Positions 14,939 to 63,423 of a stretch of 64,000 nucleotides of DNA are shown piece by piece. A model generated the notes under the pieces. That model was not told the DNA's origin, ran no database searches, and worked only from the letters and a program-made list of their open reading frames with translations. Position 1 is the first letter of the stretch, and every line of letters starts with the position of its first letter. The stretch is from Malonomonas rubra DSM 5091 (lineage in GTDB: Bacteria > Desulfobacterota > Desulfuromonadia > Desulfuromonadales > Geopsychrobacteraceae): positions 186,001 through 250,000 of the forward strand of contig NZ_FQZT01000002.1 of NCBI RefSeq assembly GCF_900142125.1. The letters run 5' to 3'. A program made the translations under genes and the position numbers.

Positions 14939-15814
14939 CTATTCTATGTTTTGTACCTGCTCACGAATTTTTTCCAGTTCCGATTTCAAAAGAACCACGT
15001 GGCGGGTCAACTCAGCATCGTTTGACTTGGAACCCATGGTGTTGGCCTCGCGATTCAGCTCCTGAACAAGGAAATCCATCTGGCGCCCGACCGGTTCACC
15101 ATTTTGCAGCAATTCGTTGAACTGCTCAAGGTGACTCCTGAAACGTGTCACTTCTTCGCTGATGTCACAGCGATCGGCAAAAATAGCAATTTCCTGCGCG
15201 ACCCGCTGCGGATCACCAGCATCATCACCTAAACGTTCAAGCCGATCTTTCAATTTCTGCTGCCATTCAACCGGCACCTGCGGTGCTCGCACAACAATCT
15301 TCTCCAACAATGACTCCAGCAATTCCAGTCGTTGCTTGATATCAACCGCTGTCGCTTCGCCTTCCTTCTGCCGCATCACCAGCAACGCCTGTAAAGCAGC
15401 ATCGATAGCCTCTTTTAAGCAGCTTGACAACACCTGCTCGTCATGGCCGGCATCCTCAACAGAGAGAACATCCTTCTGCGCAAGTAAAAGTCCGAGGCTG
15501 ATTCCGCCCGACAGATCGTAGCGCATTGTCAGCCCCTTGAAGATCTTCATGTACTCTTCGGCCAGAGGCTCGTTAATAACCGGCAACGCACTGCCAGCAC
15601 CGCTAGCATCCTGGGTAATAAAAACATCGACCTTTCCCCGCTTCAGAACAGCCGAAACTTGCTTTTTGATCTGGCTTTCCAGCGGCATCAGTACACGCGG
15701 TGCCTTGACATTGATATCCCCATAGCGGTGATTTACCGCCTTGATTTCAACGGAAAAGGACAGGCCATCAACATGCGCCTGCCCACGGCCGTAGCCGGTC
15801 ATGCTTTTAATCAT
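14939..15814 (-). CDS. yicC: YicC family endoribonuclease
   Basis: A 291-residue YicC/YloC protein, the normal length. The YicC N-terminal domain begins MIKSMTGYGRGQ and contains EIKAVNHRYGDINVKAPR. The C-terminal DUF1732 region includes EIAIFADRCDISEEVTRFRSHL and the conserved end LVQELNREANTMGSKSND. YicC proteins are metal-dependent endoribonucleases that act on structured RNAs. It follows the polysaccharide gene at 15831 by only 16 nt and is the last gene of that long minus-strand array. Its frequent partner gmk is 11 kb away here. Confidence 0.95.
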   Translation of the reverse strand: MIKSMTGYGRGQAHVDGLSFSVEIKAVNHRYGDINVKAPRVLMPLESQIKKQVSAVLKRGKVDVFITQDASGAGSALPVINEPLAEEYMKIFKGLTMRYDLSGGISLGLLLAQKDVLSVEDAGHDEQVLSSCLKEAIDAALQALLVMRQKEGEATAVDIKQRLELLESLLEKIVVRAPQVPVEWQQKLKDRLERLGDDAGDPQRVAQEIAIFADRCDISEEVTRFRSHLEQFNELLQNGEPVGRQMDFLVQELNREANTMGSKSNDAELTRHVVLLKSELEKIREQVQNIE

Positions 15815-15830
15815 CAGAAATCCTCTTTAA

Positions 15831-17723
15831 TTACTCATGCACCACAGTTGCCGGGTGCGGGATAACTTTCGCGGTCTGTTTATGCTCTACCGGAGTGTAT
15901 TCGGGCACTATAACACGAAGTTGTTTTTTTACTTCAGGCAAATCGAGAGCCTTGGCTGCAGCAAACAGTTTATCCAATTCGGTAATCAGAACTTCCCTCG
16001 TTGGCGCAACTGAACTCGCCACACAGATTTTTTCGTGATGGGTCGGCAAGGCTCCCTCTTCTGCCAGCAGAAGCTCTTCGTAGAGCTTCTCCCCTGGGCG
16101 AAGTCCGGTATAGACGATCTCGATATCTTCATGCGGCTGAAAGCCGGACAAACGGATTAGCTCTTCTGCCAAATCGACAATCTTAACCGGCTCGCCCATA
16201 TCGAAAAGGTAGATCTCCCCGCCCTGCCCCATGCTGCCAGCCTGGAGAACCAGCTGAGTTGCCTCCGGAATCGTCATAAAGTAGCGAGTGACCTCCGGAT
16301 GGGTGACAGTCACGGGACCGCCACTTTTGATTTGCTCTTTAAAGGTTGGGATAACGCTCCCGTTACTGCCGAGGACATTACCGAAGCGTGTTGTGACAAA
16401 GCGGGTCTTGCTCTGTTGTGCCAAGGATTGCACATAAAGTTCAGCAGCTCGCTTTGAAGCCCCCATCACATTGGTCGGCCTCACTGCTTTGTCGGTTGAA
16501 ACCATAACAAAGGTCTCGACCCCGAAGCTGTCAGCAGCATCTGCCAGCAGTTTGGAACCTCGGACATTGTTATTAACCGCTTCCGCTGGATTATTCTCCA
16601 TCATCGGCACATGTTTGTAAGCAGCAGCATGAAAAACAACCTGCGGCATCTGCTCGTCAAAAATAACATTGATGCGTGACGGGTTACGGACATCACCGAT
16701 GATCGGGATCACAGCGGCCTCAGGGTGGGCCTCGACCAGCTCATTTTCAATCAGGAATAACGGTGTTTCGGCACTTTCAAACAGGATCAGCTTTTCTGGT
16801 TTGAACTTTACCACTTGCCGGCAGATCTCGCTACCGATGCTACCACCAGCACCGGTAATAAGGACTCTTTTCTTATGCAGATAGCTGCTAATTTCTGCCT
16901 CATCGAGAACAATCGGCTGGCGACCCAGCAAATCTTCTAAACTAACGTTTCTGAGTTGCTGAACAGACACGCTGCCGTCAATTAACTCACCGACACCCGG
17001 AAGAATTTTAAAGCTAATCTCAATCGAATGGCATCGTTCAACAATAGATCTAATCTGTTGTCCGGATGCAGAAGGAATAGCGATAATCACTTCTTCTATA
17101 TTTTTCTTGAGGACAATTTCCGGCAGATCTTCACTTGTACCGAGGACACTGAGCCCTTGGAAAGAACCTTTTTGTTTCTGAGGGTCATCATCGACAAAAC
17201 CAACCAGTTGCAAATGAAGACGTGAGTTCGAACGAACTTCTCGAGCGATCATCTGACCGGCATCACCAGCACCGATAATTAAAGTACGTGTTCCTTTTTC
17301 TCCACCGAAGGAGAGCATTGGCAAGTACTGCTCGCGAAATGCCCTTGTGACAAAACGTACTCCTCCCATCAACATGAAGCAGATAGCCCAATCCATAATT
17401 AAGACTGACCGCGGAACATGTTCCAGGCGATAAACGACTACGGCATAGAGAACAAACAACAAAGAAGCAATGATATTAGCTTTGAGTATTAAAAACAGAT
17501 CGGGCATTGATACATAACGCCACCACCCCCTGAAAAGACTGAAGCGCCAGAAAACGATCAGTTTAATGGCGAGCAAAACCGGTGCTAAAACCAAACCACG
17601 CGCCCAGTACTTACCTTCAATGGCGAAATCGAAACGTAGAGCAAAAGACAAGTAAAATGATGATAAAACTATCAACACTTGGATTAAGAGTATAAACGTG
17701 AAACGTAACTTGTGCTTGGGCAC
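15831..17723 (-). CDS. Membrane NDP-sugar dehydratase/epimerase (WbpM/CapD type)
   Basis: A 630-residue long-form polysaccharide biosynthesis protein. Four N-terminal TM helices (about 8-130) precede a first Rossmann-like domain (TLIIGAGDAGQMIAREV) and a second SDR domain (RVLITGAGGSIGSEICRQV onward). The SDR catalytic segment reads TDKAVRPTNVMGASKR, where Met replaces the usual Tyr before xxxK, as expected for this family. These enzymes 4,6-dehydrate UDP-GlcNAc, giving a precursor for QuiNAc, FucNAc or bacillosamine-type initiating sugars. The following fusion protein could reduce the product and transfer it to lipid. Confidence 0.93.
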   Translation of the reverse strand: MPKHKLRFTFILLIQVLIVLSSFYLSFALRFDFAIEGKYWARGLVLAPVLLAIKLIVFWRFSLFRGWWRYVSMPDLFLILKANIIASLLFVLYAVVVYRLEHVPRSVLIMDWAICFMLMGGVRFVTRAFREQYLPMLSFGGEKGTRTLIIGAGDAGQMIAREVRSNSRLHLQLVGFVDDDPQKQKGSFQGLSVLGTSEDLPEIVLKKNIEEVIIAIPSASGQQIRSIVERCHSIEISFKILPGVGELIDGSVSVQQLRNVSLEDLLGRQPIVLDEAEISSYLHKKRVLITGAGGSIGSEICRQVVKFKPEKLILFESAETPLFLIENELVEAHPEAAVIPIIGDVRNPSRINVIFDEQMPQVVFHAAAYKHVPMMENNPAEAVNNNVRGSKLLADAADSFGVETFVMVSTDKAVRPTNVMGASKRAAELYVQSLAQQSKTRFVTTRFGNVLGSNGSVIPTFKEQIKSGGPVTVTHPEVTRYFMTIPEATQLVLQAGSMGQGGEIYLFDMGEPVKIVDLAEELIRLSGFQPHEDIEIVYTGLRPGEKLYEELLLAEEGALPTHHEKICVASSVAPTREVLITELDKLFAAAKALDLPEVKKQLRVIVPEYTPVEHKQTAKVIPHPATVVHE

Positions 17724-41691: not shown

Positions 41692-42654
41692 CTACTTGAT
41701 AAACACCTCGGCTGGGTACTGTTTTTTCAGCTCAGCCATCCACTTATCGTACAGTTCCGACTTTTTCCCACCCTCGACATTGCTGCGGATTTTGCCGGCG
41801 ACCTCTTCGAAGGTCATTTCGTGAGCCGGCTTTGCTTCGGTCAGCTTGATAACGTGAAACCCAGCAATAGTCTCCACAGGTCCGACGATTTCTCCCGGCT
41901 GCAGATTCTTAATTGCATCTTCGAATTCCTTAACCACCTGTCCACTATGAAAGTAGCCGGTATCGCCACCAACGAACTTGGTCGGCTCATCAGAATTATA
42001 GTAGGCCAGATTATAGAAATCTTCACCGGCTTTAGCTCGTTTAGCCAAGTCTTCGGCTTTGTCCAATAACGCCTGGCGTTGCTCGCCGACGAGCGTCGGG
42101 TCGACTTTAATCAGGATGTGGCTGGCTCGGTACTGGGGTGGGCGCATGTACATCTGCTTATTATCGTCGTAATAAGCACGCACCTCCTCATCAGTAATTT
42201 TGGCTTTTTCATTGACCACCAGGTCTTCTGCTTTTTGCGCCAGCAACATACGGTAGACTGAAGCCCGGAAAGCCGGGATACTTTCGCCGGCAAGTGCCTC
42301 TGTCAACTCGGCGTCAGTCTTGAACCGCTCACGTACTTTCGCCAGACGCTCATCAACTGCGGTGTTGGGAACAGACATCTCGTTGGCAAAGGCATACTGT
42401 GCTTTGCAGGCTTGATCGATCAAATTGTCCAGCGCCTGAAATTTCATTTCAGATACTTTTTCAGCTGAAAGCTGGGCGTGCCCCATACGTGGCGGTGAAA
42501 TCCGCTGATATTCCCTGCGCAGTTCATATTTGGTGATTTCCAAATTGCCAACTTTGGCGACAATGTCGGGCATCGGTGCGGCGAAGGCAGATAGGGGCAG
42601 GCAAAAGAAGACAAGGTAAAGAGGGATCAATCGCATTACGTATCTAAAAAGCAT
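41692..42654 (-). CDS. Peptidyl-prolyl isomerase (SurA/PpiC-like foldase)
   Basis: A 320-residue exported protein: signal peptide (about 1-25, ...PLSAFAAPMP), an N-terminal SurA_N-like chaperone region (about 30-160), then a parvulin domain (about 175-275, YRASHILIKVDP, FVGGDTGYFHSGQVVKEFEDAI, GPVETIAGFHVIKLTEAKPA). It would help fold outer-membrane or periplasmic proteins. Its position just downstream of a seven-haem cytochrome and an outer-membrane protein gene suggests co-expression with those clients. AGGAGATAG precedes the start. Confidence 0.92.
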   Translation of the reverse strand: MLFRYVMRLIPLYLVFFCLPLSAFAAPMPDIVAKVGNLEITKYELRREYQRISPPRMGHAQLSAEKVSEMKFQALDNLIDQACKAQYAFANEMSVPNTAVDERLAKVRERFKTDAELTEALAGESIPAFRASVYRMLLAQKAEDLVVNEKAKITDEEVRAYYDDNKQMYMRPPQYRASHILIKVDPTLVGEQRQALLDKAEDLAKRAKAGEDFYNLAYYNSDEPTKFVGGDTGYFHSGQVVKEFEDAIKNLQPGEIVGPVETIAGFHVIKLTEAKPAHEMTFEEVAGKIRSNVEGGKKSELYDKWMAELKKQYPAEVFIK

Positions 42655-42687: not shown

Positions 42688-43497
42688 CTATTTGATGTGG
42701 CATTCGCGGCAGAGCGCGCTGGCGTAATTATCGACAACCAGCATCCGCCGCTTGCTTGAATAAGGATTGTGACAAGATGCGCAACCGACCTTGCCGTCGT
42801 AGAGAGCTATCTCCGGCGCAAGCATCTCTACCGGCCGCAACTCCCGGTCGAGCAAGGCCGCTTTTCGGTAATCCATCCCGATTGGGTGTGACAGTCCACG
42901 TCGCTGGTAAGTCAAAGCGTCGCCACCCATGACTTTGTAACTGGCATCCGAGGCGATAACCCCATCATGACAATTCAGGCACTCGAGGGTAATCTGGTCG
43001 AGAACCTGATGATAAACTGTGTTGCTTTCGACAATACCCGACTTGCCGTGGGCAATACCGACGCTGCCGATGTGTCTCTGCCCATCCAGCGGCAAGGTTC
43101 CACGATGACAGAGATCGCAGAAATCTTTTCCCCGTGCATCTGTCCGTAAAAAGTCAAGATCATCACCCAGGCCAACATCGTGCGGATCATGACAGGTCGC
43201 GCAGGTCATGCGCCCAGCCCAATCAAGAGCAAAGGATTCCGGCACCTTCATGCTCGGCACCATGCCGATGGGGTGAGAATTCCGCGTTGAGATCGTGTGG
43301 CACTCGGCACAGAGATAACTGATATCGCGGACAAACTTTCCGGGACTGTCCTCCGTCGGCATACTCAAGTGACACATTTCACAACGACCGCGAAAATCAT
43401 GACCTCCACCACTGAAACCAGCCCACAAACCGACACTGAGGCAAAACACCAGTAGCAATAGGAAGAAACCTGAGCAATATAGCGGCTTATCGTGCAC
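42688..43497 (-). CDS. Seven-haem c-type cytochrome
   Basis: A 269-residue exported protein with seven CXXCH motifs: CEMCH, CAECH, CATCH, CDLCH, CLNCH, CASCH and CRECH. The N-terminal hydrophobic segment (LLLLVFCLSVGLWAGF) is a signal peptide or anchor. Repeated 'CXXCHDPHD' and 'SHPIGM' elements resemble the doubled-CXXCH family. Translation probably starts at GTG 43497, with GGGAGAG upstream. A periplasmic electron-transfer role is expected; partner unknown. It lies 33 nt upstream of the foldase gene. Confidence 0.92.
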   Translation of the reverse strand: MHDKPLYCSGFFLLLLVFCLSVGLWAGFSGGGHDFRGRCEMCHLSMPTEDSPGKFVRDISYLCAECHTISTRNSHPIGMVPSMKVPESFALDWAGRMTCATCHDPHDVGLGDDLDFLRTDARGKDFCDLCHRGTLPLDGQRHIGSVGIAHGKSGIVESNTVYHQVLDQITLECLNCHDGVIASDASYKVMGGDALTYQRRGLSHPIGMDYRKAALLDRELRPVEMLAPEIALYDGKVGCASCHNPYSSKRRMLVVDNYASALCRECHIK

Positions 43498-44667: not shown

Positions 44668-47600
44668 TTAAGGAGCGATCGTCAGAATCTCACGCTTAAT
44701 GTCTACGCGAGTGCTGCCGTTGTAGACGTAGACGGTCGTACGGTAGTTGTAGTTGCTACCGTCGAAGTACCGGCTAGAAGCACTGAAGTTATGCGGTACG
44801 CTTACCGAAGCGGCAGTGTCATAGACACGCTCTCTCGCACCGTCACCCCAGATGATGTACAGCATGGTGTGCGCCGGCAGGTTGCTAAAGGTTACTGAGT
44901 TGTCTAAACCAGAAGGTGAATCTACAGCGATATCAGCAGCCGGAGCAGGTGCGGCAACTTGAACCTGCTGGGAAACCTGATCAACATCACCGCTGGCGTT
45001 GATGACCTTGAGAGTCACAGTCCAGGTGCCGATGGTGTTAAAGGTTTTGGTAACGGTGGAACCGGTGAGAACACCAGCTTCATCGTTAACAGTCCAGCTG
45101 TAGGTATTGGCTGCATCATTACCAGTGGTGTCAGCCACCAGGTTGATGGTTGCACCAACCTCGACACTTGCGGGAACCGAAGCATCGATAGCAGCTACCG
45201 GAGCGTTGACGTAGTCAGACAGAGTCCGGTTGGCTTCCAGTGCTGTCGCCTTAGCATGTGCGTCGGCTTCGTCGAAGTAGAGGAACTCAGCACGGCTCAG
45301 GTCGGTGGTACGGACATAGTGTGCATCCGCAGCGAGACAGGTCAGGTCGGCTTCAGTCGCAGCAGTGTAGGCGATGAAGGTCGAACCATCCCAGCAACCA
45401 TGCTCTTCGAATTCAACTTCGTGAACGGTACCAGCTTTGCTCTGTGCTTCAGCACCGGTGATGATGTCGGCAGGCTCTGCAACGATCTCGTAGTCAACAA
45501 CCGGGCGCTGCATCATGTTGTACCCGGAGATATCGATGACCATCCCACCATTGGCTTGGTTGATGTCATAGATACCGGTCATGTCAACGGTGTCAGCAGT
45601 CGGAACCGCCGAACCGGTCATGTCGTAACCGCCGGAGAAGAAGTGAGAGTTGGCGTCGTGACAATCGTTACAAGAAGTACCCAGAACGGCAACGCTCGGG
45701 CTGACAACGTTGTGAGTCACCTGGAAAGGACCACCGAAGATGGTCAACTGGGTTTGATCCCAAGGCTTGTTGCCACCAGCCATGGAGTCCATACCGGTAC
45801 GGAATGCCTGGTAAGCGTTGATCTGCTCCGGGGTGTTGAACATGGTGTTACCACCATAGACGCCAACGTAGTCCCAGTCACTCATCGGGTTGAAGCCGTT
45901 AGCAGTCTGGCTGCTGTAAACGGAACCGTACGGGTTACCAGCGTCCATCGGATCACCGAAACCGATCGGCACGACAGCGAAACCGGTGTCAGCAAAGGTC
46001 GGGCCGGTCTTCAGGTCGCGCTGAATCCATGGATCGAAACCGAGCATGCCGGCCGGAGCCTGGCTATCAGCCTCAACACCGGTGGCACCGTCGCCGTTGG
46101 CGTCGAAAGCACCGTTGTTATCCCAGAGGATCGCGGTAATCATGTTGATGTTGTAAATCTTGCGGCGGTAGTCCGGGTTCGGAGTCACACCGTCAGCAAG
46201 GAACTTCGGTCCATTCTGCCACCAACCTTTAAGCAGGTCGTATTGCGGCATGGTCGACCAGTCGTTCATTTCGTTGACATACATGTTCTTCGGGAACGGC
46301 AGACCAGTAATCGTCTGGAAATCTGCTTCCGGGATGTCCTTCAGACCCATCGGGTCAGTGAACATGGCCATCATGCCTTTTTCCTGCTGGAAACCGATCA
46401 TAGTCGGGTAGCGGTTACCAGAGGTACAATCGAGAGCACGAACTGCCATCGACTGCTTCTTCATGTGACAGACAGTACAATCGATGATGTCGAGGTGATC
46501 ACCCATAAACGGGCCTTCAGCACCAATCGCATTGGTGATCTTTGCGGTCAAACCGGCAGCGGCGTGAGCAGCAGTCGGGTTACCGGCACCGTAAGTTTCG
46601 ATCGGCAGACCTTCAGCATTCTTGCCAGTAATGTGGCAATGCTCACAACGCTTGGCAGTGTTACGGGAATCCTGGCCAGTCTTGTCGACAGCGTTAGTGC
46701 CGGACTCAACACCACCGAGACGGGCGTAACCACGGCCCGGATCGCACTGGTCTTTGTTGGTCGCGTTGGTGTCCATGTGACAACTGGCACAGGTCAGGCT
46801 GTGGTGTGCTTCCACTTGAGCGCTGTCGTCGAACAGGTCGCCACGCTTGAAGAAGTCAGCACGCGGGAACGGAATAGTCGCCTTTTTCAGTGCACTCTGG
46901 TCGTAATCGAGACCACCGTTGAAGTAGATCGGACCGGACATAGGCTGGTTGTTACCACCCATCTCGCCAGACATCTGGCTCAACGGAGTGACATTCTTGT
47001 AAGTCTGGAACAGCGCCATCGGGAACATGCCAGCGAACGGACCACCTGCATCACTGCCATCACCGTACACCCAGGAACCGTCCATCTGAGCATAAACAGT
47101 CGGGGACTGAGACGCCATCGACGGATCGATAAAAGCAGCGTTCAGGTCGTAGCCAGGCATTGCCAGACCGGTCGGGCCTGCGAACGGGCTTAGCGGATTG
47201 AATTCCATCGGCGAAGCGGCCAGGAACTTGTCGAACATGTCCGAGAAGTTTTCCATGGTGGTCGGGCTGTGGCAGAGACGGCAGTTGTCGCTCGGCGGGT
47301 TGCCCTTGATACGGGAAACTGTATTACCGGACAGCACGGCAACCTTCATGGTGCCTTGACCAGTCATGATATTCGGAACATCCATCGAATCGACAATGTT
47401 CGGCAGATAAGACTGGGTGAACATGTTCATCATTCCGGAACCCATAGCCGGGGCAGCGTTCAGAGCACCCATCTGTACAGCAACGGAGCTGACGATATTG
47501 TTGTAGCCTTCCATGTGACAGAACATGCAGTCGATCTCGCGCACGTTCGGCATCTGGAAGTTCGGCATATCTACACCCACGGTCGTATACTCTCCGTCAC

Positions 47601-48555
47601 CGTCCATATCGAGCGGGTACGGGTAAGCCCAGGGAGCCAAGGTCGGAGCGAAGCCAGGAGCCTTGTAGGTCGCCGGGTTGGTGTCAGTGTCGACAAAAGA
47701 ACCATCAGAGTTCAGATGGTTGTTCATGCCCATGTCATTGACGTAATGCGCAGGCATACCGTTGGCATACAATGGATCAGTCGGGTTTGCGGCCATATCA
47801 GCCGGACCCATCCAGTACTCGTAGACAGTGTAATCGTAAGCGTTCAAAGGAACAGTGGTGTCGCCCTGGAAGGTCGGGCGCTTGGAGTAACGGGTACCTT
47901 CACGGTCATGATTCGTCAGACCACCACCAACGTGGCAGCTACTACATGCAGTTGCGAAATCCCAGGCCGAGTTGTCAACGGAGTCGATAAACTCTTGAGG
48001 GGTCGCGTATTCTTTACCATTAGTCAGGCTGTTGCTATCACCGTTTGCACGGAAGTCCGCCAACTGGCGGAGCGAAGGCGGTCACCACTTACCTGCCATA
48101 CCGAGGGACTGAGTCCATGGCTTACCAGCCTGGGAGCTTACGCCCGCGGTATCGATCAGCAAGTTGGCATCCTGCTGAACGTGGAAAGTATCGTTGTCCA
48201 TGTCCTCGTAGCTGACCAGCGGAGTCGCAATCGGGGTGCCGGCCTTGTCGGTGACCAAGTAACCAGTACCGTCAAAACCAGGATAACCCATCATTTGCAG
48301 CATCGGGCTATCAGTACGGTACAGAGTACCGTTGTGGCAGTTACCACAGGTTTGCTTCGGGCTGTAAGGGAAACCCTTGTTTTCAGCATCCAGGCCAACC
48401 GGCATAACCGGGTAACCGAATTGCTCTGCAACTTCCTCATAAGTATAAAGAGGGATATCGGGGTGAGCGGCAAAGCCGGTTCCCGCACCCATAATCAACA
48501 TGGTCACAGCAGCACTGACTGCCATAAACCACAAACTCACTCTATTCCTGCTCAT
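44668..48555 (-). CDS. Octahaem cytochrome c with predicted selenocysteine (U158)
   Basis: Read through one in-frame TGA (48084-48082) this is a 1295-residue exported protein. A signal peptide (about 1-29, ...GTGFAA) precedes eight CXXCH motifs: CGNCH before the TGA, then CSSCH, CMFCH, CRLCH, CASCH, CEHCH, CTVCH and CNDCH. Two PKD-like beta-sandwiches (about 1100-1290) close the protein. The junction reads AGKW-U-PPSLRQLADFR. The paralogue at 51737-55090 has GNW-D-PPSVRQLAQMF there. Coding and homology continue for 1137 codons after the TGA, and a hairpin with an AGUU loop starts 10 nt after it. Without read-through the gene would give a 157-residue one-haem product. Confidence 0.88.
48050..48084 (-). 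promoter_or_regulatory. Candidate bacterial SECIS element of cytochrome 1
   Basis: On the minus strand the TGA (48084-48082) is followed by a stem TCCGCC (48071-48066) and GGCGGA (48061-48056) closing on an AGTT loop. The loop begins 16 nt after the TGA. Bacterial SECIS elements need a hairpin just after UGA with G and U in the apical loop, as seen here. Confidence 0.6.
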
Positions 48556-51736: not shown

Positions 51737-54700
51737 TTACTTCATTATTCTCACTGTCTGTTGTTCCACCTCGACTCGCGTGCTGCCGTTGTAGACATAA
51801 ACCGTCATCCGGTATTCGAAATAGTCCCCTTTGTCATATTTGGCGTATTGACGGAAAAGATGATCGACAGTCTTGTTCGAACCAGCTGGCAGGTTTTCGT
51901 AGAAGCGGTCTTTGGTTCCATCCCCCCAGATCACATACAGCATGGTACTCTCCGGCATGTTATTGAAGGTCACTTGAGCCGGAACGCCGACACCGTTATC
52001 AGCGTAAGTGATATAGGTGTCTGGAGCCGGAGCGACAACGGTCACCGGCAGGCTCGATTGAGCCAGTTTGCCTTCTTCATCCACGACACGTAATGTCACC
52101 AGCCAGGTACCGATCTTGTCAAAGGTCTTCTGCACCGACTCGCCTTCCAGCACTTCGCCTGCGGTATCGCTGACGATCCAGCTGTAGCTGAAGGTTCCTG
52201 CTGTATTCACTGAGGTATCAGCGCTGAGAGTGATAGTACTCCCAACCTCGATATCCTGGTTGCTGTTTATCGGCAGCATCTGAGAAATCGGATCAATACC
52301 GATTCCGGTCACCGCTGGGTCACCGAGGGTATTCAGGTAGGCAACCCAATCAGCACGTCCATCGTAACTGGTGCCGTTGGTTCCGAACCATTGCACATCG
52401 CGCCAGGCTGCTGTTTCCATCTGTAACTTGCCGGCCCATGCTTGTGCATGCAGCCGCACCTGGTAGCCGTTCTGGCCACTGATTGTAATGCCGCCGGTTC
52501 CGTTTGCCGTCACGACGAACTCGAAGTCACCGACAAATGAACCAAGATCGGTCAACAGTTCGGCAACACTGCCGACATCTGTCGCCACCAGACGGCTGCG
52601 GTTGACGACCGTCTGGCCACCATCGTTCGAAGCCTCGACCTTCAGCAACCAGCCCTGCTCGTTACCACTGAAATCGATCGCTGCCGCAGAGGAATAACTG
52701 GCGGCGAAAGCTGCCGGAGCCTTGAAATCATCTTCGTAAATCATCTCCGAACGTTCAATCGGACGTACGGTAAAGTAATCTTCCGGGGTGCCGTTGTTGT
52801 CACTATCAATCTGCGTTGCGACATTGGCGAATTCGATGGCGATCGAGCGGGCAGCCGACTTGTCGCGCAGCTTCGGATCGAAATCACTCGCCTGCGTCTG
52901 GCCGTTGACCATCACGTAAGGAACCCGGTCATCATCCCAGTAGAGGCTGCTTCCATCACCGAGGGGATTGATACCGCCGTTATAAAATTCAGCAGTTTCC
53001 GAATGGCAATCAGCACAGCCGCCGATGCCGAAGCTATCGGCAACCGGCGAAACATTGTGGTTCACTTTGAACGGCACACTGGCCAACGAGAACCTAGTAT
53101 CCGGAGTCCCACTACCAACCCATCCGGCGACAAAGGAATTCAGGTTGCTCACCCGTTCGTTGATTTTCGCCGCTGTGACCTGACCGTTGTTATCGGCGGT
53201 CAATGATGTCCAGTCATTGCTCAGGTTGACCGACAGAATCTGGGTCGGTAGCAGAGGATCAAGTCCGGCTGGATTCCCGTCGAAGTTGACGTCGAAATCA
53301 GCATCGTTTCCATCACGCCAGAACATGGTCGTTACAACGTTATTGCGCTGTAGCCGCCCTAAGTACCAGGAGAGAGAACTGCGATCGGTCATGTTGTTGC
53401 GATCGACCCAGTCGTTGGTGTAATCGAAGAGGTGCCCGGCAGCATCATTCCCGGTCGCATCGACCATCGAGCCGCCTGTGTTCCAGCTTGCCGAGGATAT
53501 TTTCCGCACATGACAGACAGTGCAATCCATCAGGGCGACATGGCTGATCTCGGGCACTCCCTGCATTTTCAGCGGATCCTGAACAACCTCTGCCATCAGC
53601 CCGGCGCGATCGTGGGCCGCGGTTGGATCGGGCGCACCGTAGGCCTGGCCACCATCTCCACCGCGCAAGTGACAACTTTCGCAATCCTTGAAAGCCGCGT
53701 CATCACTGGCGTTAAACACTTCGCTGAATGGCACGTCCCCTTTGGCTGGGTCATGCCCCATGGTGCCCTCACCCATCTTCGGATAATTGGCTGAGATCTG
53801 CATATCCCAGCCGTCCAGGGAAACGCCGTCGCTGCGTTGATGACAGCCGAGACAACCAAAATTAGTGTGGAAGGTGTGGCGGAAATCACCCTGCCAGTTG
53901 TCCCCCCGCTTTTTCCAGTCGACTGCGAACTCGTTGAAGTGGCAGAGTGCGCAGTTGTTCGTCAGCGGAGTGCGGTTGAGGCGCTGATCGAAAAAGGCCT
54001 GACTCAGAACCGGGCCGGTTTCGTTGATAAAATCAAGCCCGACAAGATTGTCGCCGTAAATAACCGTGGTGCCATAACCAGCTGGAGCACTGCCGCCGTC
54101 GGGCCACTGCAGGCCGTTATCGCTGGCGATCCCGGCCGCAATACTGCGACTGGCATCCAGCTTCCCTTTGCGCAGCGCTGCCTTGCGGGCGGCGTAATTG
54201 TAATCTTTCAGGTGGCAGACAAAACAGTCGACTTCCAAAACTCCGGTATTGGCGTAATCGATGTACTGGACTTCGCTTTTATCGCTGTCGCCATCGACAT
54301 CGTAAATATCGATAAAATAGTTGAATGCGGTCACAGTCGCAGCATCGATCGGACCGCCAAGACCGTTGACATCATTGACAACAGTTTCCTGCACCGGCTC
54401 CATGCGAAAACCTTTCGGTTCCAGCACCGGGTTGCCGTCGGCGTCAAGCACAATCGCCTCACGGGTCGGCTTGGCGATGTCGCGCAGAGGCACCCGGGCA
54501 AACAGGTTTGTGTTCGGCACATATTCCATCGCCCCGCCGCCGACATGGCATTCGCCACAATCCATGATATTGCCGGGGACCGACATATCGACCTTATTAC
54601 GGAATTCCGTCAGATCGGCATAGACCTTCGGCAACCAGCTGTTCGACTCAGCCTCGAGAAATTGCCCGCTGGCAGCATCGTAGTTTCCGGTTCCGGGGAC

Positions 54701-55090
54701 TCCTTCGAACATCTGCGCCAGCTGGCGCACCGAGGGCGGATCCCAGTTGCCGAAGTGGCCCGGGGTCTGCAACCAGTTTTTGCCTTCCGGCACCGGGCCA
54801 CTGACGAACTTATCCTGCGAATCGGGATTATGGTGTGCCCAACCGAAAAATTCGTTGGCCCCGGTCTGCGCATGAAATGAGTGCTGCTCGATGGCGTTGT
54901 AATCGTGACAGCTCTGACAAGTCTGCTTCATGCTGAAAGCCGGTGACGGCGTCCCCGGTACGGAAATCTCGATCCGGTTACCCTCAGCATCGAGCAGCGG
55001 CACCGGCATATGTGCTGCTGCCGGGAGTGCAGACAACAGCAACAGGGCCAAAAGACCAACGAGAATCTTTCGATAAGAGTACGTATTCAT
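51737..55090 (-). CDS. Octahaem cytochrome c, Asp-containing paralogue
   Basis: A 1117-residue exported protein: signal peptide (about 1-26, ...ALPAAA), then eight CXXCH motifs (CQSCH, CGECH, CFVCH, CALCH, CLGCH, CESCH, CTVCH, CADCH) and PKD-like domains in the last ~200 residues. It aligns along its length with the predicted selenoproteins at 44668 and 59627. Where they have TGA it has GAT (D117, HFGNWDPPSVRQLA). Start 55090 follows GGGAGGAG. It is the last gene of the operon NHL protein - 23-haem cytochrome - octahaem cytochrome. Confidence 0.93.
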   Translation of the reverse strand: MNTYSYRKILVGLLALLLLSALPAAAHMPVPLLDAEGNRIEISVPGTPSPAFSMKQTCQSCHDYNAIEQHSFHAQTGANEFFGWAHHNPDSQDKFVSGPVPEGKNWLQTPGHFGNWDPPSVRQLAQMFEGVPGTGNYDAASGQFLEAESNSWLPKVYADLTEFRNKVDMSVPGNIMDCGECHVGGGAMEYVPNTNLFARVPLRDIAKPTREAIVLDADGNPVLEPKGFRMEPVQETVVNDVNGLGGPIDAATVTAFNYFIDIYDVDGDSDKSEVQYIDYANTGVLEVDCFVCHLKDYNYAARKAALRKGKLDASRSIAAGIASDNGLQWPDGGSAPAGYGTTVIYGDNLVGLDFINETGPVLSQAFFDQRLNRTPLTNNCALCHFNEFAVDWKKRGDNWQGDFRHTFHTNFGCLGCHQRSDGVSLDGWDMQISANYPKMGEGTMGHDPAKGDVPFSEVFNASDDAAFKDCESCHLRGGDGGQAYGAPDPTAAHDRAGLMAEVVQDPLKMQGVPEISHVALMDCTVCHVRKISSASWNTGGSMVDATGNDAAGHLFDYTNDWVDRNNMTDRSSLSWYLGRLQRNNVVTTMFWRDGNDADFDVNFDGNPAGLDPLLPTQILSVNLSNDWTSLTADNNGQVTAAKINERVSNLNSFVAGWVGSGTPDTRFSLASVPFKVNHNVSPVADSFGIGGCADCHSETAEFYNGGINPLGDGSSLYWDDDRVPYVMVNGQTQASDFDPKLRDKSAARSIAIEFANVATQIDSDNNGTPEDYFTVRPIERSEMIYEDDFKAPAAFAASYSSAAAIDFSGNEQGWLLKVEASNDGGQTVVNRSRLVATDVGSVAELLTDLGSFVGDFEFVVTANGTGGITISGQNGYQVRLHAQAWAGKLQMETAAWRDVQWFGTNGTSYDGRADWVAYLNTLGDPAVTGIGIDPISQMLPINSNQDIEVGSTITLSADTSVNTAGTFSYSWIVSDTAGEVLEGESVQKTFDKIGTWLVTLRVVDEEGKLAQSSLPVTVVAPAPDTYITYADNGVGVPAQVTFNNMPESTMLYVIWGDGTKDRFYENLPAGSNKTVDHLFRQYAKYDKGDYFEYRMTVYVYNGSTRVEVEQQTVRIMK

Positions 55091-55143
55091 CAACCGCTCC
55101 TCCCTTGAAGCAGAATCCTCTTTTCGTTCATCAGCAAACATCA

Positions 55144-58100
55144 TCATGGGCAGAATGGAGCATTGCCGCCCCCCTCCCAATCGTTTTCACCGAACGCCCG
55201 GCCGTGGCTGTGGCAGTTGTTACAGGCGTTGCAGTCCTGATGATAGAAGGTGTCTGCAGTCTGCCACTTGGCGTGACACTTGACGCAGAGCGAGGTCATG
55301 TCCGGCCCACTGCCACCGACCTCAACCGGCACAACAACCGGACCGGCGCTGCCGTAGGTCCAGACCGGTCCCAGCGTCGGATCGTCGCGGTTGCCATCAT
55401 CGACAAAAGCAGAGCCATCGACATAATCACGGATCATGTAGGGGTTGCCGGTCGGGTTGGTCGCTGAGTAGGAACCGTGCGGATCGTGACAGCTGATACA
55501 GTCAAGCACGTAGCTCGGTGCCTGCGGATCCAGAACATAACCCGGCCAGCTCCGTTTCGACCCACCACCGTGAGCCGAATTACTCCAGCTGATACCGATC
55601 CACCAGGGATCGCGATTGTAACCGTTGCAGGAGTCGATGCCGGCCAGTGACGGGCAATCATTACCGATACAGGGGTCAGTCCCGGTACAGTCGCCGCCAT
55701 CGTAATCAAACTCGGCACAGTTGAAATCGACCCCATAAGCGCCGTCATCACAATAGGTTCCATCGCCGATCCAGCTGGCGTACTGGGCTTCGTCGATGCA
55801 TTGATCGTTGCAGTCGTAGATCATCCCGGTACCACAACTGGTGCCTGGCGTATTTACCGGATCAACAACCGGGGTGTAGAAAGTGTGCTGTTCGACTCCC
55901 GTCGGCATATCGTAATTGAGCGGGTCACTGCCGCCATCATGACAGGCAAGGCAGAAATCATTACTGGTCCCGCTCCAGGCAACCAACGTGTTGTCGGGAT
56001 CGGCCACCGGCTGAGACGCTGCAGAGGTGTGAGCACCGTGACAATCGAGGCACTCAATCTTCGAACTGCCGAAAGCCTGATCGGCATCGCTGATGTCGTG
56101 ATGACTGTTGCTCGGACGCTGGCTGCCTTCGGAACCGAAGCAGATATCGCCATAGAATTCGTTCCACTGCAGGCTACCAAGGAACTTGCTGGCAACATCT
56201 GGAGGGACATTACCGTTACCGAAAGGATTGAGTGCGCTGGCCAGCCGCGCCGCGCCGTTGGCATCGTGGCAGTTGGCACAGAAATTCGACAGGTCAGGAT
56301 CGCTGGTCAGATCGCTCGGCTGAACAAAACTGTACAATGCTCCACTGTCCGGATCGACCAGCTCGACGTATCCATTCATGTGGGTCGCCGTGCTGTGGCA
56401 AACCAGGCAGGTATCGTCGTTCAGCTCGTTACCATAGTGGGCATGGGCGTTACTCAGGGGGAACTCCGCCATCATCCCGCGGCGACCTCCAACCGGCACT
56501 CCATCACCATTATCCTGTGGCCCGGCGTGGCAATCAACGCAACCACCTGCTGGCGCGAAGGCCTGATTTGGCGCGTCATCCACCGAGTGTGGGTGACAGG
56601 TTGTACAGACAGAGCCGGCATTATGCCCATCACCGGAATTCGAGGTGTAATGGTCCGCCCCGTTGTGACAGACATTACAGATGCCGTCATAAGGTGCGCT
56701 CGATTTCGCAAAATCGGTTCCTGTGGAGTTGCTGGTAAAAACAACCGGAGCTGTCTGAACCGGCAGACCGAAATCATCGGAACGGGTTGCCAGCAGGTCC
56801 TGCACCATAACGATATTGCTGTCACCATGCGGATCGTGGCAGTCCCAGCAGAAACGCCCTCCCTTATCGCTATTGCCATGCTTGCTGCCGTAGTGATAGC
56901 TGTCGGCCTTGCTGGAGCCATTCACGAGGGGTACCGGGCCGCTGCCATCCGGATCAAAACCTGTGGAGCCGGTCTTGTGACAACTCCAGCAGACACCGTT
57001 CGGACCATCGGGACCCGTGGTGTTCGCCAAGCGGAAAGGGTTGGTAGGGTCGTCGTGGCCGGCTTCGCCATGACAGTAGTAGCAGGAATCAAAGCCTGCC
57101 CCACCGTGGCCGGTGGCGTTCCACTGCGCCTGGTCCACCTGCGCGGTGGTCCCGTTACCGAAAACGTAATCATCGACATCTCCGGAACCAAGGTGGCAGC
57201 CGGAGCAGCCGGTTCCTTCGAAACTGTAGATCGCCCCAGATTCGTTGTGGGCGTGGCATTCGGTACAGATATCGCTACTGGAATGGCCAATGATATCTTT
57301 GGCGTCGCCGTGGCACTTCTCACAGTAACCGTCCGCCGTTCCATCGACCCCATCGTTCCAGAGGCTGTGCTTCTGAGCATCATCGATAGCGGCGCTGCCG
57401 CTGTAATCCAACCCGGTCACAGTGCCGTAGCTGGAGGTCGTCACACTGGCACGCAACACATAGTAATTGGGATTACCAGCATTAAATGCATGGCCGGAAT
57501 GGCAGCTCAAGCAGCCGATCTGTTCGCCGCTGCCGTCACCATGATGTCTATAGGTGTGGCAGGCCTGGCAAAGCGCCGATGGTTGGTCTCCCTGGGCACC
57601 ATCAGCTCTCAGCAGCCGTCCATCCCCGGCACTTTGCACCGCACCGGCGATATCGGCTGTTGCCGAATCGGAATCGACAAAATGAGCGGCATGACAGGAA
57701 GAACAACCGACGCCCCCATCTACCAGAGCGATTGAACCCTGGCCACCACCGTTATTCGGTGTCGTCAGGTAGCTATCCGGTTGTGGCACGGCCACGGCAG
57801 CATAATCCGCCACCAGCGGATGAGTCCCCAACGCATGACTGACCGGCCCCGCCCAGGCACTGTGACACTCACGGCAAACCGATTCCACGCTGCCGAGCCG
57901 TAACAGGTTCTGGTTATCGCTCGCCCCGTGGGGGTCATGGCAACGAGAGCAAGTCACCAGGCCCCGACTGACCGAGTAGCGGCCATAAAATTCCGGGCTG
58001 GTCGGAGCATTTGCCCCGGCAGCTGAATTATCTTCCGCCGCAGCCCACATATGAGAATTCTGCAAACCGGGAGTCACCCCGACGGGATAACTGCTGAACA

Positions 58101-58305
58101 GGTTACTGGCATCGGACACCGCGATTTTATCGTTATGGCACTGTAGGCAGACGTTGGTTGTGGCATGCCCAAGTTCAGTAAAGCTGATATCCGGTTTATG
58201 ACAATCCTCACAGGAAAAGTCGTGCACCGGCCTCGCGAAAGCAGCTAAAGGAAGCAACACCCCGCACGCTAGCAACAGGATGCATTTTAGTGTCCGTATT
58301 TTCAT
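55144..58305 (-). CDS. 23-haem c-type cytochrome with an LNR-like insert
   Basis: A 1053-residue exported protein starting with a signal peptide (about 1-24, LLPLAAFA). Twenty-three CXXCH motifs run the whole length, many in CXXCHDPHG or CXXCHSxH form as in doubled-CXXCH proteins. Between the 20th and 21st haem site (about residues 830-900) lies a cysteine-rich stretch without haem motifs. It matches the Lin-12/Notch repeat pattern (DCNDQCIDEAQYASWIGDG, then CDDG and DGGDC). Such cytochromes form long haem wires in or outside the periplasm. AAGGGG precedes the start. Confidence 0.92.
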   Translation of the reverse strand: MKIRTLKCILLLACGVLLPLAAFARPVHDFSCEDCHKPDISFTELGHATTNVCLQCHNDKIAVSDASNLFSSYPVGVTPGLQNSHMWAAAEDNSAAGANAPTSPEFYGRYSVSRGLVTCSRCHDPHGASDNQNLLRLGSVESVCRECHSAWAGPVSHALGTHPLVADYAAVAVPQPDSYLTTPNNGGGQGSIALVDGGVGCSSCHAAHFVDSDSATADIAGAVQSAGDGRLLRADGAQGDQPSALCQACHTYRHHGDGSGEQIGCLSCHSGHAFNAGNPNYYVLRASVTTSSYGTVTGLDYSGSAAIDDAQKHSLWNDGVDGTADGYCEKCHGDAKDIIGHSSSDICTECHAHNESGAIYSFEGTGCSGCHLGSGDVDDYVFGNGTTAQVDQAQWNATGHGGAGFDSCYYCHGEAGHDDPTNPFRLANTTGPDGPNGVCWSCHKTGSTGFDPDGSGPVPLVNGSSKADSYHYGSKHGNSDKGGRFCWDCHDPHGDSNIVMVQDLLATRSDDFGLPVQTAPVVFTSNSTGTDFAKSSAPYDGICNVCHNGADHYTSNSGDGHNAGSVCTTCHPHSVDDAPNQAFAPAGGCVDCHAGPQDNGDGVPVGGRRGMMAEFPLSNAHAHYGNELNDDTCLVCHSTATHMNGYVELVDPDSGALYSFVQPSDLTSDPDLSNFCANCHDANGAARLASALNPFGNGNVPPDVASKFLGSLQWNEFYGDICFGSEGSQRPSNSHHDISDADQAFGSSKIECLDCHGAHTSAASQPVADPDNTLVAWSGTSNDFCLACHDGGSDPLNYDMPTGVEQHTFYTPVVDPVNTPGTSCGTGMIYDCNDQCIDEAQYASWIGDGTYCDDGAYGVDFNCAEFDYDGGDCTGTDPCIGNDCPSLAGIDSCNGYNRDPWWIGISWSNSAHGGGSKRSWPGYVLDPQAPSYVLDCISCHDPHGSYSATNPTGNPYMIRDYVDGSAFVDDGNRDDPTLGPVWTYGSAGPVVVPVEVGGSGPDMTSLCVKCHAKWQTADTFYHQDCNACNNCHSHGRAFGENDWEGGGNAPFCP

Positions 58306-59626: not shown

Positions 59627-62600
59627 TTAAGGAGCAATGAACAGATACTCACGGTTGATGTCTATGCGGGCACCGCCGTTGTACACATAAACAGTCGACA
59701 GGTATCTGTAATCAGGACCAACAAAGTACCGACTGGAAGCACTGAAGGTATGGTCAACATCTACGCTGGCCGGAGAACCGGTTGGGTAGACTTTCTCACG
59801 TGAACCATCACCCCAGATGATGTACAGCATTGTGTAGGTTGCCGGCAGGTTGCTGAAGCGTACAGTATTACCAGTGCCGGCCGGGTTACTGGTTACGACT
59901 GCGATGTCAGCAGCCGGAGCCGGTGCAGTCACCTGAACCTGAACGGCATCTTGATGGATATCGCCGTAAGCGTCTTCAACACGCAGGTTACAGGTGTAAG
60001 TACCGACAGTATCGAAGGTCTTCTCAATACTTGCGCCTTCATAGACAGTGTCGGCAAGGTCGTTACAGATCCAGCTGTAGCTGATACTCGGAACACCAGC
60101 ATTGACCACTTCGTTCGCTGCCAAAGTGACAGGAACGCTGACTTCTGCGACAAGATCAGCACCTGCATCGGCAACGCCGTGAGCAGGCAGATCGTTCTCA
60201 TCAATGCCGTCCAGGTAAGCAACCCATTCGCTACGACCGTTAGCGACAGTGCCGTCAACACCAATCCACGGAGTTGCCTTGTAAGCTGCGTTGCTCAGGG
60301 CGAAGCTGGCAGAGTTGTCGATGCCACCCTGCAAACGAACGTTGTAGCCAGGCTCTGCAGTGATCTTGATGCCATCACCAGCAGTATTCAAGGCAACAAC
60401 AAAACCGAAAGTACCATCCTTGAACTGGCTGCTGATCTGACCCATCAGGCCAGCCATATCGGTGACGTCAGTACCAACCGACTTGGTGTAGGTTGCGACC
60501 GAACCGTCGGACTCATCCTCAACCTCGACCATCAGCAGCCAACCTTTTTCGTAACCGCTCAGGTCGATAGTGCCACCTTCATACTCATCGGCAAAATCAG
60601 CTTTGCCCATGAAGGCTGCTTCGTACATGTTCTCGCTACGCTCGACCGGGCGGGTGGTCAGAGCAGCAACTTCAGGAGTAACGGCATTGCCATCATCATC
60701 CCAGGTGGTCGGAGTGTTGGAAATCTGGATCGCGATGGTGCGAACACCGAACTTGTCCATCTGTCCCGGATGCCAGTCGGTCGGCTGTGAGAAGCCGTTG
60801 ACCTTGGTGAACGGAACCCGCTGGCTGGTGCTGGCACCATAGACCATCGTGTTGTTGTCGCCGGTGGTGTCGATGGAGCCGTTGTAGAAGTTGGCACCGG
60901 CATCGTGGCAGTCGGTACAACCGTTGATGCCCCAGGACAGCTCGATCGGGGAGACACCGTGGTTGTTCATGAAGTTAACATGGAAGATCGAGAACTTGGT
61001 CTTGGCGGTACCGGCAGCAACGCCAGCCTTGTTTTCGATGTAGGAGTTAAAGGCAGTAATCCGCTCACCGAAATCGGCCGGAGTCACGTCGCCATGATGG
61101 TCTTCGGTAATCGAAGCCCAGCCGTTATCTTCGTTAACAGCCAGAACGTCGGTCATCAACAAGGCATCCATGCCGTGCGGACGGCCGTCAAAGTTGGCAT
61201 CGAGAGCCGGAGTGTCGTTCTTATCGCGCCAGAACATGGTAGCCGACGAGGAGACGCGGTGGATCTTGCCTTTGTACCATGCCAGCGAAGTGTTGTCGGT
61301 CATGTTCTGCTTCATGACGTACGGATTCTCATGATCGGTCAGACGGTTTGCAGCGTCTTTGCCGGTCGCATCAATCAACGGGTTACCAGTGTTGCCCCAA
61401 TCGTAGGAGTTCGCTTTACGGGTGTGGCAAGCGGTACAATGCATCATGTCGATGTGACTGATTTTGGCAACGCCGTCAGCGGTGTTACCCTGAGCGATCT
61501 TGGCGGTCAGGCCGGCAGCAGCGTGGGACATGGTCGGATTCGGTGCGCCATATTCGCGACCACCGGCACCATTGATGTGACAGTCCTGGCACTGCTTGAA
61601 AGCAGCCTTGTCGTTCTTGTTGTACAGACCGCTATACTGGGAATCGCCTTTTGCCGGATCGTGACCGAGCAGCCCATCGCCCATTTCCGGATAAGGTCCA
61701 CCCCAAACAGAGGTGTACTCAGCGGCCGGGTTGGCAGTCACGCCATCCGGGAGCAGATTCGGTTCGTTTGGATCATCCGGCTGCAGAGCGGTCGGCTTAC
61801 GCTCGTGACAGCCCATGCAACCGAAGTTGTAATGCACTTCATACTGGAAGTCATACTGGCCATTCGGCGCCCAGTGATCACCACGCTTCTTCCAGTCAAC
61901 CGAAAACTCGTTCATGTGGCAGAAGGAACAGTTGGTGGAATCAGGAGTCGGGGCAACATTCTCGTCCATCCAGGCCTTGGGAATACGCAGGTTACCGTTG
62001 CCGTCAATAATAAACTGGCTCATATCATAGACAACAGTGGTACCGTATCCGGCCGGAGGAGCAGCTCCGTCAGCCCAGGTCAGGCCATTATCAGTTCCGA
62101 GGCCGGCACCGATAGCACGGCTTGCATCGATCTTGGCGTCGCGCAGAGCCTCACGGCGTTCGTCGTACTTGTAACCGGGCAGGTGACACAACAGGCAGTC
62201 CATTTCCATGACACCAGTTTTGATGTAATCCATGTGCAGGGCTTCAGTTTTGTCACCATCGTTATCGACATCGTAGGTATCGATAAAATAGTTGAAAGCA
62301 GTATAGTCGGCTGCGGTGATCGGATTTGCTACCAGCGGATCACCACCGAAACCATAAAAACCAGTTGTGGAAATAGTACGCAGAGAAACGCGGCTTTCAT
62401 AATCATTGGTCTGCGGCAGGGTATCTTTGTACGGGATGTACTCCATCATGCCACCACCAACGTGGCACTCACCGCAATCCATCATGTTGCCGGCCAGAGA
62501 CAGGTCAACCTTCTTCAGGAACTCTGCTTCTGAACCGTAATCAAAGGGGACATACCAGTAAGTGGTAGCCGGATCCCGAGTCGAATCGACTTCGTCGAAC

Positions 62601-63031
62601 TTACCTGCAGCAGCGTTGTAAGCAGAAGTACCGGATGCGCCTTCAAAAAGTCTCGCCAACTGGCGACCAGAAGGCGGTCACCACTTGCCGATATGGCCAG
62701 GACTCTGAACCCAGGATTTACCCTTGGTAGCAACACCAGCCTTGTACTTGTCCGGACTGTTCGGGTTGAAAGCCATCCAACCCTTCATTTCGTTGGTTCC
62801 GATCTGGGCATGGTAGGAATGCTTTTCGATCATTTCTGAATCGTGACAGAAATTACAGGTTTTCATCGAGCTGTAAGCGGTCGTAGCACCGGCAGCAGCT
62901 GCAATCGGAAATCCATTGTGATCAAGCAGCTGAACTTCCGGGTGGTCCATTGCAAAGGATGTACTTGTCAGGCCGGCCAAAACGGCCAGGCAGGACAGCA
63001 CCGCCAGTTGCAAGCGATAACTTTTTTTCAT
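59627..63031 (-). CDS. Octahaem cytochrome c with predicted selenocysteine (U118)
   Basis: Read through one TGA (62680-62678) this is a 1134-residue exported cytochrome. A signal peptide (about 1-27) ends STSFA. The first haem motif CNFCH precedes the TGA; CGECH, CLLCH, CSFCH, CMGCH, CQDCH, CTACH and CTDCH follow, then PKD-like domains. The junction reads PGHIGKW-U-PPSGRQLARLFEGA, the same place as in 44668-48555. Start 63031 is chosen for AAAGGAG at proper spacing; upstream ATGs lie within or before that site. It is the same length as the Asp paralogue (1117), with which it shares PGH-G-W and RQLA. Single gene with its own terminator. Confidence 0.9.
62639..62680 (-). promoter_or_regulatory. 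Candidate bacterial SECIS element of cytochrome 2
   Basis: After the TGA an outer stem GCCTTC (62675-62670) pairs with GAAGGC (62644-62639). An inner stem TCGCC (62666-62662) pairs with GGCGA (62657-62653), closing on AGTT. The loop starts 16 nt after the TGA, as in cytochrome 1. Two-part stem and GU-containing loop fit bacterial SECIS architecture. Confidence 0.68.
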
Positions 63032-63423
63032 TTTCATCATCTCCTTTTTTTCATTTCGAAACACGAACTGCAAAATTCCCACTCCTGATGAAATTTTCTT
63101 TCCTGTGTCTCCTTGTGGCAGGAGCTGCCTTCAAAACCGATCAGGTGTTGGGGCACATGACCGAAAGAAGTCAGCGATTTCATGCAAACGGTAAAGGGCT
63201 TAACTGCGTTGTAGCAGCAATTATGCCTATGTCCAGATTTCACGGTACTTTCCCGAACAGAATCCATAACCAGCTAAAAGAATAGGAGATTTTCGATATA
63301 TAAATTTATTTCAACAGCAACATGTGCGAACAAAAATCTTACCATGAAAAAAATTCACTCACAAAAACTGGGGATACCCCCTGCTGCCCATTTCCTTTAG
63401 GGCAAATACCCAGACAAAAAAAA
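63032..63423. other. Intergenic region upstream of selenocysteine cytochrome 2
   Basis: No supported gene. A ribosome site (AAAGGAG) is near 63040. A GG-N10-GC motif on the minus strand (63214-63227, AGGCATAATTGCTGCT) is a weak sigma-54 candidate about 180 nt before the start. CTGGGGATACCCCC near 63369 resembles the repeat at 49051. Confidence 0.45.

Follow-up and report, generated by a model that had tools for sequence, protein, structure and literature searches.

The locus analysed here raises the question of how a single TGA inside a long, otherwise intact cytochrome gene is read: as selenocysteine (Sec), as the boundary between two genes or as the mark of a broken one. The gene lies on the minus strand of a 64,000-nucleotide stretch of contig NZ_FQZT01000002.1 of Malonomonas rubra DSM 5091 (assembly GCF_900142125.1, positions 186,001 to 250,000), hereafter the window. 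A first-pass annotation, made from the letters alone, had proposed that the TGA encodes Sec in an exported octahaem cytochrome.

Gene Structure and the Internal TGA

The main features of the gene are as follows.

44668-48555, minus strand: octahaem selenocytochrome gene, TGA read as Sec (frame and haem motif reading)
48082-48084, minus strand: in-frame TGA, codon 158, predicted selenocysteine (kept in homologues)
48334-48348, minus strand: haem motif 1 (CXXCH at residue 70), ahead of the TGA
47932-47946, minus strand: haem motif 2 (CXXCH, residue 204), first past the TGA
44956-45204, minus strand: PKD domain, residues 1118-1200 (Pfam PKD_4, E 1.2e-8)

The frame from 48555 to 44668 encodes 1295 residues and is interrupted by exactly one internal stop, the TGA. 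CXXCH motifs start at residues 70, 204, 343, 425, 589, 637, 693 and 962, one before the TGA and seven after it. The single TGA at 48084-48082 in an otherwise open frame and this distribution of haem motifs had both been reported in the first-pass annotation and were borne out, as was its expectation that automatic annotation would split the gene: the table 11 ORF list cuts it into pieces of 157 aa and 1131 aa. The protein begins with a hydrophobic leader of about 30 residues (judged by eye) and carries the Sec motif GKW-U-PPSxRQ. Besides the PKD domain, the Pfam matches comprised cytochrome c7 and a weak MtrC/MtrF domain II/IV similarity below the cut-off, and NCBIfam yielded a single weak match, of the PKD part to a polycystin model. 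An AlphaFold model of the window protein (pLDDT 44.9) was set aside.

Residues at the Predicted Selenocysteine Position

Full-length relatives with 69% and 47% identity to the window protein have a TGA in the same place, and relatives from other families likewise carry the motif with its TGA. At E 1e-6, a profile of 18 relatives, A1, finds matches in 101 of 395 genomes from the phylum; its 18 genes were picked by the TGA motif, so that TGA in 18 of 18 is the outcome of selection. A census was taken by reading the codon wherever the frame aligned at the column, with genes not picked by the TGA motif. In 69 further distinct homologous genes, fetched from loci chosen deliberately to include matches listed without TGA and hence not a population frequency, the column held TGA in 42, Cys in 12 and other residues in 15 (Ser 8, Leu 3 and Trp, Gln, Gly and Met one each). 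Part of the non-Sec codons (TCA, TGG and TTA) are one base away from TGA. Loci L095, L096 and L101 are gapped at the column and lie outside the census; their codons are included in the codon-set extraction described below.

Homology thus goes on both sides of the in-frame UGA and some homologues have Cys there, as is looked for in a selenoprotein. The recurrence of the TGA in the 69% and 47% relatives and in 42 of the 69 further homologues shows that it is no private error. The tabulation of homologues that the first-pass annotation had put forward as a check on a private nonsense mutation did not refute the proposal: the homologues keep TGA or have Cys or, in a third group, other residues.

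In three relatives haem motif 1 is widened beside the Sec site: L043:11641-15153 (CX5CH), L051:266-3697 (CX7CH) and L049:5051-7597 (CX4CH).

Selenocysteine Machinery and Genome Distribution

The source genome (3.96 Mb, 42 contigs) has selD, selB and selA adjacent on contig C29, all above cut-offs, the selD gene having one TGA of its own. A tRNA-Sec with a TCA anticodon was found at 69.9 bits. All the components whose absence the first-pass annotation had named as fatal to its proposal, selA, selB, selD and tRNA-Sec, are thus present.

The window protein is matched in 11 of 136 genomes of the order, the match in genome G052 covering the tail only. tRNA-Sec occurs in 106 of the 136 genomes and in every one of these 11, which is not far from expectation. 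No match was found in nine other genomes of the genus, and the family is patchy. Among 35 genomes with Sec copies, tRNA-Sec was strong in 30, scored 49-50 bits in three and was found in none of the remaining two; it was also found in 26 of the 27 genomes listed for non-Sec copies. Across the 62 genomes tested, its presence fails to separate Sec from non-Sec genomes.

In genome G084 the tRNA-Sec gene (C106:1052-1143) and the octahaem Sec gene L042 (5824-9693) are separated by less than 5 kb; in G130 the distance between them, on contig C11, is about 12 kb.

SECIS-like Hairpin

A short hairpin follows the TGA.

48057-48070, minus strand: SECIS-like hairpin, 5 pairs, loop AGUU at 48062-48065 (covariation, 58 genes)

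The loop begins 17 nt past the UGA, a spacing near that of the E. coli fdhF element. Folded singly, the window hairpin is not significant (z −1.69, 12 of 200 shuffles equally stable). The comparative set comprised 58 Sec genes (44 genomes by a tally of locus lists) with 54 distinct rows; one of the hairpin listings contains a false row, L053. Of the 270 cells that the five pairs give over the distinct rows, 98.1% are paired. Double-change cells number 27 vs. a shuffled mean of 8.7, and none of 500 shuffles reaches 27. Versions of the hairpin slid along the alignment were at most 80.4% paired, with 6 double-change cells. A SECIS hairpin shortly past the UGA, the second mark of a selenoprotein, is therefore present by virtue of covariation over the 58 genes; the hairpin that the first-pass annotation presupposed was found, with compensatory changes.

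The codons within the hairpin are constrained as well. The residues R-Q-L/V-A past the UGA are encoded in the 58 Sec genes by the near-fixed codons CGC CAG TTG GCG, with CAG in 58 of 58. Leu in the hairpin is encoded by TTG without exception (45 of 45 Sec genes), whereas TTG accounts for 479 of the 4166 Leu codons in these frames. Some Sec genes of the column census, e.g., L062, L086 and the L131 copies, were missed by the codon-extraction pattern. Where two codons are inserted ahead of Q-L (e.g., L145 and L083), the hairpin shifts along. Of 66 rows labelled non-Sec, the 17 at the true site were kept, the rest being residues next to the site in Sec genes, repeats of one site or unrelated stretches. 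At true-site rows with Q-L, none of the 7 homologues with Cys (six) or Asp (one) has the hairpin TTG, which is present in 6 of the 10 others (Ser, Phe, Met and Gln). Fisher and binomial values on these counts ignore relatedness and were not relied on. Because four of the seven Ser codons among the non-Sec rows are TCA, the TTG-bearing homologues with neither Sec nor Cys may be relics of lost Sec genes.

Four loci, L093, L095, L100 and L104, have Ser encoded by TCA, one base off TGA, with the hairpin TTG kept; judging by these codons, they are probably recent Sec losses.

The same codons bear on a reading with two genes, in which translation would stop at the TGA and restart at TTG or GTG within the hairpin. 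The conserved codon is TTG, GTG or ATG, all of them start codons, in 56 of the 58 Sec genes, and the ORF caller begins the 1131-aa ORF there; however, the codon is TCG in the other two, and no Shine–Dalgarno-like run was seen by eye ahead of the restart codon. The Cys homologues are single continuous frames, and the residues from the UGA to the restart are conserved like the rest of the protein. Moreover, the downstream half would be without an export leader, which haem attachment needs. A pair of genes is thus very improbable.

The frame would also stay open if the TGA were read as any other residue, by a near-cognate Trp tRNA or by stop-codon reassignment, and Trp (TGG) does occur in one of the 69 homologues. 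Yet Cys, with 12 occurrences vs. one, is the usual alternative, and TGA serves as an ordinary stop here, ending 6 of 19 window ORFs checked. A pseudogene or sequencing error is countered by a frame that is otherwise intact and by the recurrence of the TGA in many genomes with a covarying hairpin. We regard these routes together as exceedingly improbable.

The Sec reading is supported by the sel genes, the exchange of TGA and Cys in homologues and the covarying SECIS-like hairpin, and the UGA almost certainly directs selenocysteine insertion in vivo.

Relation to Octahaem Tetrathionate Reductase

A larger profile, A6, was built from 46 relatives, compact and long. A PDB profile search with A6 placed the Shewanella octahaem tetrathionate reductase (OTR) 1sp3 first (E 9.3e-13); the same search with the window subfamily alone gave PKD/Ig-like domains and one weak cytochrome c3. 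NrfA-type nitrite reductases had been matched by a first profile of compact relatives and were rejected, the OTR link coming with the larger A6. For a compact Sec relative, L147, an AlphaFold model reached a pLDDT of 88.5 and a pTM of 0.87. A Foldseek search with it returned 1sp3 as the sole match below 0.001 (E 4.9e-6, probability 1.00, 559 alignment columns); the TM-scores, 0.36/0.48, are low, and the match is therefore a distant one.

Alignment of A6 with 20 OTRs, gathered by TIGR04315, using hhalign gave 99.7% and E 6e-26 with all eight haems covered. In it the Sec column falls on the OTR NNF-C/U column and the D-x-K-K-R-G motif of the relatives falls on the OTR D-x-V-K-H-G. The corresponding motif of the window protein is the following.

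46840-46857, minus strand: DFFKRG with Lys570, aligned via compact relatives to the OTR lysine motif

It lies within ADFFKRGDL, in which Lys570 is invariant across the 18 rows of the A1 alignment. Aligned with OTR directly, the window subfamily covers haems 5-7 alone (97.9%); hence the equivalence of the window Sec and the OTR Cys runs through the compact relatives that share the Sec site. Numbered by the 1sp3 chain index, the lysine of OTR is 153, and the aligned stretch is directly preceded by residue 64; Cys64 and Lys153 belong to the OTR active site. The compact relatives have eight haems in homologous order with OTR, and eight motifs are likewise present in the window protein. Both the window subfamily and the compact relatives keep the OTR lysine motif in sequence, and ligation is predicted. 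In OTR itself, the lysine that ligates the active-site haem comes from outside that haem's CXXCH motif (PMC12285233).

TIGR04315 did not match the window protein at E 0.01, and the curated OTR cut-off of 375 bits was not reached; 4 of 18 relatives match the model (best E 1.8e-7), far under that cut-off. Judged by profile and alignment, the window family is distantly related to OTR. The first-pass annotation had placed a redox-active selenol between haems 1 and 2 of an exported cytochrome. Its position aligns, through the compact relatives, with the OTR cysteine, and its redox chemistry is a prediction; the selenol quite probably sits close to the catalytic haem, at an active-site position.

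OTRs themselves carry TGA. An OTR match at E 1e-30 was found in 43 of 198 genomes of the phylum, 31 of the 43 being over the cut-off, and the aligned column in 23 OTR loci read TGA in 11 and Cys in 12. Among the latter are L158 and L159, which read NNYC, were missed by the NNF pattern and were counted as Cys. A clear hairpin follows the UGA in 10 of the 11 TGA copies. The source genome has a Sec OTR of its own, L160 (G000:C33, about 15256-16518, NNF-U), past whose UGA no clear hairpin was found; it shares its contig with two Cys OTR copies.

The Sec OTRs L165, L171, L173, L175, L177, L178, L180 and L181 have NWCRC, vs. NWPRC/NEPRC in Cys OTRs. The Pro-to-Cys change sits within the hairpin, as if the protein had yielded to the SECIS.

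Gene Neighbourhood and Paralogues

The gene is surrounded by further cytochrome and envelope genes.

59627-63040, minus strand: second Sec paralogue in the window (GKW-TGA-PPSGRQLA)
51737-55180, minus strand: paralogue, its frame containing eight haem motifs, with GAT (Asp) in place of the Sec codon
43558-44490, minus strand: outer-membrane beta-barrel protein with TSP3 repeats (Pfam)
42688-43497, minus strand: multihaem cytochrome, 7 CXXCH in frame
41692-42654, minus strand: PpiC-type peptidyl-prolyl isomerase

Downstream of the octahaem gene lie the TSP3 outer-membrane barrel, the 7-haem cytochrome and the isomerase; upstream lie the Asp paralogue, a 1053-aa multihaem cytochrome, an NHL protein and the second Sec paralogue. 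In all, the family has five members in the source genome, clustered on about 26 kb of contig C19; TGA stands at the site in four of them and Asp in the fifth. In a homologous locus, that of genome G108, the downstream order matches that of the window; a PAS histidine kinase stands between its two octahaem genes, and a cytochrome with ten CXXCH and then an NHL protein come next. The PKD domain and the neighbouring outer-membrane barrel suggest that the window protein may work at the cell surface.

The 1053-aa cytochrome (window 55144-58305) has very many CXXCH motifs, 23 in a longer read-through frame, and adjoins the NHL-repeat protein.

In two compact Sec relatives, L147 and L143, the cytochrome is fused to a domain of the formate-dehydrogenase-gamma/cytochrome b561 type. 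Domains of this type take electrons from quinol, and the fused forms are therefore probably quinol-linked.

Proposed Function

In the mechanism that we propose, the SelA/B/C/D machinery would decode the UGA as Sec, directed by the short hairpin just past the codon. The exported octahaem cytochrome would receive electrons along its haem chain, and haem 2, its iron ligated by lysine, would be the active site. The selenol located there would attack or protonate a small substrate, e.g., an S–S bond, and would be re-reduced through haem 2. The window protein is, on this evidence, probably an exported OTR-related reductase with a hairpin-directed Sec at a Lys-ligated haem 2, reducing a small substrate. 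That this substrate is of the sulfur type, such as polysulfide or polythionate, is a tentative suggestion.

Alternatively, the inserted Sec may have a structural or metal-binding part, relay electrons or serve as axial ligand of a haem, the protein being a surface cytochrome that transfers electrons without catalysis. Such a role would suit a neighbourhood rich in electron-transfer cytochromes, and it would suit the Asp of one paralogue and the other residues in 15 of 69 homologues, some members having neither Cys nor Sec. We think it unlikely, as the site aligns with the OTR cysteine, which is itself Cys/Sec-variable, and the lysine motif is retained.

Returning to the OTR-related reductase, a broader reading can be advanced with somewhat less than even confidence: a selenol facing a Lys-ligated catalytic haem may be a recurrent enzyme design in the phylum, used in several architectures (giant PKD-tailed exported proteins, b561-fused forms and classical OTRs) for respiring an external sulfur-type acceptor. 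If so, selenium supply would be tied to sulfur or extracellular respiration, and many anaerobes would hold respiratory haem proteins whose key residue is invisible to ORF callers, since these cut such genes in two. With Sec, Cys, Ser or Asp occurring at one site, and with four copies carrying Sec and one carrying Asp in the same gene cluster, the family offers a natural experiment on the reasons for using selenium.

Comparison with Known Cytochromes and Selenoproteins

The window protein shares with OTR (TIGR04315, 1sp3) the number and order of its eight haems, a Cys or Sec in the aligned column between the first two of them and a lysine motif after haem 4. It differs in being about three times as long, with long insertions and a PKD domain, and in having GKW-U-PPSxRQ where OTR has NNF-C/U. 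With the outer-surface decahaem cytochromes of the OmcA/MtrC type it shares a likely surface setting and the weak MtrC/MtrF Pfam similarity. Membership of that family (TIGR03507) was rejected, the window protein having eight haems and no match; 1 of 18 members of the window family matches the model weakly (best E 2.3e-4).

Sec cytochromes as a kind are already on record, as ExtKL and Sec OTRs. In a 2026 review (PMC13188914), TIGR04315 appears among the selenoproteins annotated in GenBank and ExtKL among the predicted ones, and haem-bearing selenoproteins are few in the list. The listed TIGR04315 protein combines eight haems with Sec, and the Sec OTRs found here, including the source-genome copy, fit that entry, whereas the window family does not score as TIGR04315. 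A Geobacter cytochrome, later named ExtKL, was predicted to contain Sec in 2007, in a paper that reports no SECIS found (PMC1914089). ExtKL (NF040886; GSU2937-2936 of Geobacter sulfurreducens) is likewise a c-type cytochrome of related bacteria with a predicted Sec (PMC1914089, PMC5877670). It differs in having five haems, all before the UGA half, and in that a SECIS, reported as not found there (PMC1914089), is found here. The window gene was rejected as an ExtKL, having no NF040886 match; the best match in the genome lies on another contig and scores 32.9 bits against a cut-off of 250. In the open-access journal literature searched, no description of the window family was found in the texts available. 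The window protein belongs to a selenocytochrome family that existing models miss, distantly related to OTR and spread over the phylum; the finding is wider than was first noted.
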